Origin: Lentisphaeria bacterium
Lineage (GTDB): Bacteria; Verrucomicrobiota; Lentisphaeria; Victivallales; Victivallaceae
Length of the DNA stretch: 44,465 nucleotides
NCBI GenBank assembly: GCA_017504435.1
Contig: JAFVRD010000044.1
Coordinates: forward strand, 1 to 44,465
Reading direction: 5' to 3'
Each line of letters opens with the position of its first letter. Positions within the stretch are counted from its first letter, which is position 1. Position numbers and translations under genes: made by a program. Below the pieces are notes generated by a model. That model saw only the letters and a program-made list of their open reading frames with translations, was not told the origin of the DNA and made no database searches. Below are positions 4,807-34,742 of this stretch, piece after piece.

Positions 4807-5649
4807 TCAGGATCCGGCTTTATCCCGGTTGCAATACAATGTTTGGGTCGGATAAGCAAATTCCAATCCGGCAGCATTGAATTGATGGAGTATCTTGGAG
4901 TTGAGTTCGTGAAGCAGTTGTTCCTCCAGCAGGAAAGATTCAGTTTTGAAAAATATGATGGCACGGATATTGAGAGAATAAGCTCCGAATCCGGAGAAAA
5001 ATATCCGCGGTTCAAACTCTTTTTGATCCGGTCCGTGAAAGTTGTCCATTATTTCATGCAGTATTTTTACCGCCTGATCCATCTGCACTGCAGTGGTATC
5101 ATAGGTCAGAGTAAGATCAATTATCCGTTTGAGATGTCCGCGGCGGTTGCGCTGAAATAAAGCGGCATTGGTGAGAATACTGTTGGGAATGGTGCATTCT
5201 GATCCATCATCGGTGATGATCCGGCTGCTGCGCATTCCCACATTTTTTACGATGCCGCATATATTTCCGCATTCGATCCGGTCGCCGGGTTTGAATGGAG
5301 CATCGGTCAAAATGACCAGAGTTCCGAAAAAGTTGGAAATGGTATCTTTGGCGGCAAGCGCACATGCCAGGCCTATAACACCTGCACTGGCGAGCAACGC
5401 CGAAATATTCAATCCGAAAATATTCTGTCCGATGAATAAGGCGGCTGTAATGATGATTATTATTTTCAGCGAACTGCCGAAAATTCCGGCGGTAAGATCG
5501 CTTAATGAGTTGTCCTTGTGTCCGGCGAATTCCCGGAGTTTCCGGTCAAGTTTGCCGGCGGCATAAAGCATTGCTCCCGCTGCACCGGTCACGGCGGCAA
5601 TGGCAAGCAGGCGGTTGAGCCACGGAACGGAAAAAAGAGTATCAAACAT
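4807..5649 (-). CDS. MscS-family mechanosensitive ion channel
   Basis: 280 residues, close to the E. coli MscS length. Inner-membrane channel that opens under membrane tension to release osmolytes. Three hydrophobic segments are visible (about 10-30, 58-80 and 84-105); the third, rich in Ala and Gly, leads to ALAAKDTISNFFG, the pore-helix signature. A beta domain follows, with PFKPGDRIECG, GIVKNVGMRSSRI and TIPNS, then a C-terminal alpha/beta cytoplasmic domain. The ATG has a near-perfect Shine-Dalgarno GGAGGTGAT, but this is locked in one arm of a perfect hairpin (see 5653-5693). The gene is last in a leftward run after ruvB and a DUF1893-like lipoprotein, 64 bases from the latter. Confidence 0.92.
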   Translation of the reverse strand: MFDTLFSVPWLNRLLAIAAVTGAAGAMLYAAGKLDRKLREFAGHKDNSLSDLTAGIFGSSLKIIIIITAALFIGQNIFGLNISALLASAGVIGLACALAAKDTISNFFGTLVILTDAPFKPGDRIECGNICGIVKNVGMRSSRIITDDGSECTIPNSILTNAALFQRNRRGHLKRIIDLTLTYDTTAVQMDQAVKILHEIMDNFHGPDQKEFEPRIFFSGFGAYSLNIRAIIFFKTESFLLEEQLLHELNSKILHQFNAAGLEFAYPTQTLYCNRDKAGS

Positions 5650-5652
5650 AAT

Positions 5653-5693
5653 ATCACCTCCGGAAAGTACACTATAAACTTTCCGGAGGTGAT
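5653..5693 (-). promoter_or_regulatory. Perfect 16-bp hairpin sequestering the mscS Shine-Dalgarno
   Basis: Two 16-base arms, 5653-5668 and 5678-5693, are exact reverse complements around a 9-base loop. In the leftward transcript the 3' arm carries GGAGGTGAT, ending three bases before the mscS ATG, so the whole ribosome-binding site is paired. The opposite arm contains ATCACCTCC, the same bases as the anti-Shine-Dalgarno end of bacterial 16S rRNA. No T tract follows, so it does not look like an intrinsic terminator for the upstream lipoprotein gene. The likely effect is reduced or conditional translation of mscS; that is inference. Confidence 0.7.
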
Positions 5694-5713
5694 TTCAAGT
5701 GCAAACCGAAATT

Positions 5714-6208
5714 TCAGTTGCGCGTCATTTTCTCAATACATTTTTGCAGTGCATCCATTGCCTGAACCGGATCATTGATCCCCTGTACGGATTTTTCCAA
5801 CGGGCAAATATCATCCATGCGCCGGTTGAGGATACGGGGAACGGTTTTGGATGAAGTTACCGGGATATTGTGCTTTTTGAGCAATTCAATGGCATCTTCA
5901 CTTACCAATTCCCCATGCGCGGCGGCGGCTTTTCCCGAAATGATAATAAATGCGGCAGCTCTGCCGATGACTTTATCTACGACGATCCCGCCATTCATAC
6001 ATTCCGGTTTACTGCGGTAGATGTTGAGCAGCGGACTGACTCCGCGTCCTTTTTCCACAGTTGCGATCGTATTGTTTTTGACAACCACACACTCTGCGTT
6101 TCCGGATTTGATCATCCGGGCAGATTCTCTGACCAGAAATTCAGTTGAACATCCGGAAATTACGGCACACAAGGCAAATAATAAAATTGCGGTAAATAAA
6201 TTTTTCAT
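5714..6208 (-). CDS. Lipoprotein with DUF1893-like domain
   Basis: 164 residues. The N terminus is a lipoprotein signal (hydrophobic stretch ending in VISGC), so the domain is exported and lipidated at Cys20. The mature part matches the DUF1893 pattern: VVKNNTIATVEKGRGVSPLL, then a GGIVVDKVIGRAAAFIII segment, ELVSEDAIELLKKHNI, and the closing NRRMDDICPLEK. From memory, the structure of a Thermotoga member has a cytidine-deaminase-like fold, but catalytic activity is unproven. An exported version is unusual, since the domain is mostly cytoplasmic. It follows ruvB by 18 bases with AGGG before its ATG, and precedes mscS, forming a leftward three-gene run. Function unknown. Confidence 0.75.
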   Translation of the reverse strand: MKNLFTAILLFALCAVISGCSTEFLVRESARMIKSGNAECVVVKNNTIATVEKGRGVSPLLNIYRSKPECMNGGIVVDKVIGRAAAFIIISGKAAAAHGELVSEDAIELLKKHNIPVTSSKTVPRILNRRMDDICPLEKSVQGINDPVQAMDALQKCIEKMTRN

Positions 6209-6226: not shown

Positions 6227-7243
6227 TTAAAATAATTCATTATCCCTGACTGCATCAGACAATCCCAGTTTCCGCCAGGCTTTGGGCGTGGCGACCCGTC
6301 CCCGGCTGGTGCGGACAATGTAACCGTGCTGAATGAGGAACGGTTCATAAACATCTTCCAGCGAATCTTCATCTTCTCCGGTAGAGACCGCAATGTTTTT
6401 CAGTCCGACCGGACCGCCCCGGAAATTGTTGATGATGACTTCCAGAATACGGATATCCATTTCATCCAGTCCGTCCCGGTCGATCTGCAGCATCTCCAAA
6501 GCATCGGAGGCAACGGAACCGGTAATGATCGAATCGGCTTTGATTTGTGCATAGTCCCGGGCGCGCCGGAGCAGATTGTTGGCGATACGGGGCGTGCCGC
6601 GGCAGCGGGAGGCGATCTCCCCGGCTCCTTCGGAGTCGATTTCCACATTGAGAATATCAGCAGAGCGGGTAATTATTTTTTCCAAACTTTCCTGATCGTA
6701 GTAATCCAAGCGCATATTCAAGCCGAAACGGGCGCGCAACGGTGCGGAGATCATTCCCAATCTGGTGGTCGCTCCGATCAGAGTGAATCGCGGAACGTTG
6801 AGTCTGACACTTCTGGCACCGGCACCCTGTTCGAGCATGATATCGATAAAGAAATCTTCCATTGCGCTGTAGAGATACTCTTCCACCGTGGCACTGAGGC
6901 GGTGGATCTCGTCGATAAAAAGTACATCTCCGGGTTCAAGCGAGGTGAGCAGACCGGCGAGATCGCCGGGTTTTTCAATGGCAGGACCGCTGGAACTTTT
7001 CAGTTTGGTTCCTCTTTCGTTGGCGATGATATATGCCAGCGTGGTCTTGCCCAGCCCCGGCGGGCCGCACAGGAGGATATGATCGAGAGCTTCATTGCGT
7101 TCTCTGGCAGCGCGGACAAACAGTTCCAGTTGTTCTTTGACCCGGTGCTGACCCGGAAATTCGGCAAAGGTCGGCGGTCTCAGGGAAGTTTCTTTTGCTG
7201 CATCCCGGCGGTTCAATGTGGAGGTGATAAAACGTTCTGACAT
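6227..7243 (-). CDS. ruvB: Holliday junction branch migration ATPase RuvB
   Basis: 338 residues, full length. Hexameric AAA+ motor that, with RuvA, drives branch migration of Holliday junctions before RuvC cleavage. Walker A is GPPGLGKT at 60-67, Walker B DEIH at 111-114, sensor 1 GATT at 157-160, and the C-terminal winged-helix DNA-binding domain ends with the typical GRVATPKAW. No ruvA or ruvC is in this window, so the genes are not clustered here. Only a weak GGA precedes the ATG. It is divergent from the transketolase gene and is probably the first gene of a leftward transcript including a lipoprotein and mscS. Confidence 0.97.
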
Positions 7244-34712: not shown

Positions 34713-34742
34713 ACAGGCTCATGAAATTTTTCATGAGCCTGT
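34713..34742. terminator. Hairpin terminator between convergent genes
   Basis: ACAGGCTCATGAAA (34713-34726) and TTTCATGAGCCTGT (34729-34742) are perfect complements. In the leftward direction the stem is followed by an A-A-T5 stretch (34704-34711 region), giving a good terminator for the isomerase gene; rightward it ends at TTGAATTT and may serve the secreted protein gene. Confidence 0.75.

Follow-up and report, generated by a model that had tools for sequence, protein, structure and literature searches.

The hairpin immediately upstream of the pressure-valve gene mscS in this gut-type Lentisphaeria genome encloses the entire Shine-Dalgarno (SD) sequence of the gene and carries the -10 box of a predicted promoter in its loop. 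It probably serves as a translational insulator, comparable to that of T4 gene e, which keeps mscS from being translated when RNA reads through from upstream. This reading builds on the stem, the SD, the promoter match, the gene order and the absence of a T-run terminator, all of which were read directly from the DNA. The following features of the locus were found in the window, i.e., the whole analyzed stretch of 44,465 nucleotides:

4807..5649, minus strand: mscS, 280 aa, ATG at 5649 (PF00924, E 1.6e-16; PF21082)
5653..5661, minus strand: SD of mscS, GGAGGTGAT, a 9-nt match
5653..5668, minus strand: SD-bearing 3′ arm of the hairpin, ACTTTCCGGAGGTGAT
5669..5677, minus strand: hairpin loop, TTATAGTGT, 9 nt, holding the -10 box
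5671..5676, minus strand: predicted -10 box TATAGT inside the loop, by consensus match
5678..5693, minus strand: 5′ arm of the hairpin, ATCACCTCCGGAAAGT, which is also most of the spacer between the predicted -35 and -10 boxes
5693..5698, minus strand: predicted -35 box TTGAAA, by consensus match; its last base is the first base of the 5′ arm
about 5661..5667, minus strand: start zone expected for the own promoter, from the usual distance between -10 and +1
5714..6208, minus strand: DUF1893 (TM1506) lipoprotein gene, co-directional and upstream of mscS
6227..7243, minus strand: ruvB, 18 nt upstream of the lipoprotein gene and presumed to belong to the same operon

The genes ruvB, the DUF1893 lipoprotein gene and mscS were found head to tail with gaps of 18 and 64 nt, and the 64-nt gap between the lipoprotein gene and mscS contained no T-run terminator. 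From this arrangement, long transcripts would be expected to read into mscS from ruvB-DUF1893. The stop codon of the lipoprotein gene ends at 5714, with the stem beginning 20 nt further on and the SD lying more than 50 nt further on. The first canonical start codon in the mscS frame is the ATG at 5649, and a TGA just 5′ of the stem closes the frame. Elsewhere in the window (34713-34742), a perfect 13-bp stem was found between convergent genes, where it is probably a two-way terminator.

The initial annotation had described a perfect 16-bp stem with a 9-base loop, located three bases before the ATG of mscS and including its whole SD, and this was confirmed on the minus strand. The mRNA just ahead of mscS reads TTGAAATCACCTCCGGAAAGTTTATAGTGTACTTTCCGGAGGTGATATTATG. 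The 3′ arm is separated from the ATG by the spacer ATT, so that the stem proper covers 5653-5693 and the interval 5650-5693 includes the spacer as well. The first sample comprised 376 gene starts, and only 2 of them, mscS included, had an SD match of 9 nt. In calculated folding, the stem alone showed a stability of -27.1 kcal/mol at 37°C, -23.7 kcal/mol at 45°C and -7.4 kcal/mol at 85°C, at which it was still folded, and the SD was predicted to be paired with a probability of 0.99 in the long RNA. When folded as the plus strand, the 161-nt region gave a z value of -3.4. These calculations support the earlier suggestion that the SD would be buried, and translation poor, in an RNA carrying both arms. 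An Rfam search of the hairpin region gave no riboswitch or leader above the gathering score and only chance miRNA matches. The other arm had also been proposed to mimic the tail of 16S rRNA. The identity itself holds, and it carries no independent meaning: a sequence that pairs perfectly along a full SD is the anti-SD by definition, and the arm must read ATCACCTCC because it pairs with a full-length SD. A pattern search of this assembly for the 16S 3′ end gave no match; one near match was not a 16S end.

The sequence TTGAAA-16-TATAGT on the minus strand was the best sigma-70-type match within the surrounding 1.9 kb, and its spacer is nearly the entire 5′ arm. When the 64-nt gap was shuffled by dinucleotides, only 0.06% of the shuffled sequences had a match of at least 10 out of 12 with the -10 box in the loop. 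Across the upstream regions of this genome, sigma-70 matches (TTGACA-17-TATAAT type) of at least 10/12 were about three-fold more frequent than in shuffles, an excess that is not strand-specific, since the antisense of these regions was equally rich (30 vs 31 at 10/12). TTGAAA is a common form of the -35 box in the upstream regions of the genome, where TTGAAA-17-TATATT recurs and one TTGAAA-17-TATAGT was found. The predicted mscS promoter has a 16-bp spacer, compared to the usual 17 in this genome, and a pyrimidine-rich start zone.

RNA polymerase is expected to start 5-9 bases past the -10 box. An mRNA from the own promoter would thereby begin inside the 3′ arm, with a leader of about 12-18 nt that contains the SD and lacks the 5′ arm, and it could not form the 16-bp stem because its start falls in the 3′ arm. 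The calculated fold of this short transcript was modest (about -10 kcal/mol including the 5′ coding sequence), with an SD pairing of 0.8. We infer that the promoter is active, that transcription starts at this site, that read-through occurs and that the long RNA loses translation, and propose that the locus works as follows. RNA polymerase entering from ruvB-DUF1893 would produce a long mRNA with both arms, in which the 16-bp stem would hide the entire SD and leave mscS untranslated. The gene would instead be expressed from its own sigma-70-type promoter, and the transcript made there would expose the full-length SD near its 5′ end. If this holds, a cellular chromosome does without a terminator and separates adjacent co-directional genes by the T4 lysozyme trick. 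In that case, both operon prediction and RNA levels would be misleading, as read-through mscS RNA would not be translated. The promoter-in-loop layout is simple enough to be searched for elsewhere and to be used in expression design.

The mscS hairpin is not a chance product. Six shuffles of 444 kb of the genome gave longest perfect inverted repeats of 10-14 bp, compared to 16 bp at mscS. Among the 319 gene starts of the first sample with an SD of at least 4 letters, the mscS stem was by far the longest, its 16 pairs comparing with 11 Watson-Crick pairs in the next-longest (loop limit 15). A larger sample covered 1.14 Mb and 961 ORFs, roughly half of the genome. With loops of up to 32 allowed, a perfect SD-covering stem of at least 12 bp was found there at only two intergenic starts, namely those of mscS and of a SIS-domain gene. 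ORFs were called by a simple method, and promoters were scored by their match to the consensus. In 400 kb from four genus relatives, no comparable SD-covering stem enclosing a promoter was detected, and one 12-pair match there (L258) looks coding. An 18-pair stem, ATGATTTTCTCGATCACC / GGTGATCGGGAAAATCAT, in L294 (minus strand, ORF start offset 5155) ends at an in-frame ATG and was rejected, as it apparently lies inside a longer coding sequence. A repeated element or regulon was likewise dismissed, since those of the 48 loose 15-mer matches that were checked lie in coding regions. A family of hairpins mimicking the anti-SD was not supported either: the pattern CACCTCC..GGAGGTG occurred once in this genome, its matches in relatives were mostly of the coding type, and a looser pattern was unspecific. 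Besides these searches, TCCGGA was observed to be the fourth commonest hexamer (814 occurrences vs a mean of 109) in the 444 kb made up of the G000 stretches L150-L169 and the window. An inverted repeat of 19 perfectly matched bp, AAAAGATACTATGAGAGAC, enclosing a loop of 7 nt, was also noted at L169 11873-11917, in an intergenic gap of about 720 nt between divergent genes.

The second case has the following positions:

L156 19824 (G000:C53, start near 139,824), minus strand: SIS-domain gene
L156 19832-19879 (G000:C53, near 139.85 kb), minus strand: hairpin of the SIS-domain gene, 14-bp stem

This stem consists of CCTTGTTTTTCCGG / CCGGAAAAACAAGG with the loop CAGTAACGGTGTATATTTAC, followed by AGAAAATATG. 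The layout is the same as that of mscS, with a co-directional thioredoxin-like gene just upstream and the SD AAGGAG ending the 3′ arm. The sequence TTGTTT-17-TATATT spans the 5′ arm and the loop, and its -10 box TATATT lies in the loop. Upstream of the same SIS gene in the relatives L234, L236 and L238, TTGA(A/C)A-17-TATATT was found in register with TTGTTT-17-TATATT, and TATATTA was present upstream of the gene in L241, L248 and L249. The hairpin was absent from these relatives. The predicted promoter in the SIS-gene loop is in this way supported by comparison, and the hairpin seems to be a newer addition around an older promoter. This comparative support makes an accident less likely for the predicted loop promoter of mscS too. 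It is conceivable, though we hold it only tentatively, that promoter-in-loop hairpins are a repeated chromosomal device in this Lentisphaeria lineage that uncouples a gene translationally from the upstream operon and replaces a terminator. A thioredoxin-like gene at L154 70-127 showed an imperfect SD-covering stem with TATGGT in the loop, and may be a weak relative of the layout.

The mscS relatives in the genus showed neither the hairpin nor the order ruvB-DUF1893-mscS. Both features are unique to this genome. In the genus relatives, the lipoprotein gene and the mscS gene were found on separate contigs, and no ruvB was detected within roughly 1.5 kb on either side of their lipoprotein gene. 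The open frames of the closest MscS relatives in the genus span about 370-410 aa and have longer N-termini, and the named near relatives are Lentisphaeria/Victivallales MAGs, one of them from goat rumen. It seems that mscS came to lie behind ruvB-DUF1893 in this lineage, a place in which the gene may have been turned on by read-through, and a stem that silences read-through while sparing the own promoter would fit such a history of the gene order. In G038 and G070, which belong to another family, a terminator-like stem, GTCTGTATCTCC / GGAGGTACAGAC, was found just upstream of mscS relatives (L201 and L202). Its SD lies in the 3′ arm, followed by T6-9 and the ATG, and its loop of 5 nt contains no promoter. 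The arms were identical in both genomes, and the loop and flanks differed. Judged from these sequences, two lineages have placed a stem on the SD of mscS, in different ways.

Other explanations were weighed against insulation. A terminator or RNA 3′-end stabilizer of ruvB-DUF1893 that overlaps the SD of mscS by happenstance is unlikely, even though the stem lies 20 nt past the lipoprotein stop codon, is followed by the loosely T-rich ATTATGTTTGAT and has a clear terminator-like counterpart on the SD of the mscS relatives of G038/G070, kept in both genomes. An intrinsic terminator has a GC-rich stem directly before a T-run; here no continuous T-run follows the stem, whereas T-runs do stand at the end of several of the genome's other long stems, and the exact coverage of the SD and the -10 box in the loop would be left unexplained. 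The hairpin was also missed by the terminator scan, whose loop limit of 8 is below the 9 nt of this loop. The initial annotation had offered a stable 3′ end of the lipoprotein message as an alternative. As a side effect of the hairpin this is possible, and so is partial termination by a weak terminator. A DNA operator, in which a repressor of mscS binds the long inverted repeat around the promoter, would account for a palindrome centered on the -10 box and is nevertheless very unlikely: the half-sites are longer than those of usual operators, one of them is the full SD, and the half-site matches elsewhere were all coding where checked and are explained by the commonness of TCCGGA. That a chance inverted repeat without function lies here, as its absence from relatives might suggest, is extremely improbable, since no perfect 16-bp repeat arose in the six shuffles and the stem, the SD and the -10 box fall together.

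A conditional switch, in which a protein, small RNA, helicase or RNase would open or cleave the hairpin in certain circumstances and mscS would be translated from the long mRNA, agrees with the SD being hidden in the folded long RNA and with a gene order that makes a joint transcript likely. We regard it as quite unlikely. Of the triggers put forward in the initial annotation, temperature is excluded by the stability calculated for 85°C, and salt is improbable given a stem far too stable at 37°C. Coupling from the upstream gene is also unlikely, as the standard footprint of a terminating ribosome is too short to keep the SD open from more than 50 nt away, and the upstream stop codon is 20 nt away even from the stem. 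The Rfam search matched the region to no known riboregulator. A trigger that opens the stem, be it environmental, a protein or an RNA, is unnecessary because an mRNA lacking the 5′ arm would be supplied by the predicted loop promoter, and the need for one found no support.

The proposed insulation by the hairpin has its closest parallel, a proven one, in T4 gene e, where the start site of the long early transcripts is covered by a helix and about 100 times less lysozyme is made from them (PMC3014915). In this gene, as well as in soc, 49 and I-TevI, long transcripts from upstream are poorly translated because of a helix over the SD, and a promoter within the 5′-strand DNA produces a shorter mRNA that lacks this helix (PMC3014915). 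The anatomy at mscS is the same: the SD is predicted to be paired in the long transcript, and the predicted promoter is placed so that a short mRNA would lack the 5′ strand; the locus may behave similarly. The mscS case differs in lying in a bacterial chromosome, with a sigma-70-type promoter, the -10 box in the loop and no early/late programme. RNA thermometers also have a stem that covers the SD, but the mscS stem is a perfect 16 bp and by calculation stable beyond 85°C, and thus does not melt as a thermometer would. The transposase genes of IS10/IS50 have a hairpin in the read-through mRNA that hides the start site, with the own promoter inside. Compared to these, the mscS locus contains no mobile element, transposase or repeat copies of the arms. 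The stems of the G038/G070 relatives likewise stand right before the mscS start codon with the SD in the 3′ arm, and differ by their T-run and short, promoter-free loop. A narrow search of the open literature found no bacterial chromosomal, long-leader-isoform or mscS-specific precedent, which is a weak sign of novelty. The T4-type layout is known from phage and is unusual in a bacterial chromosome.
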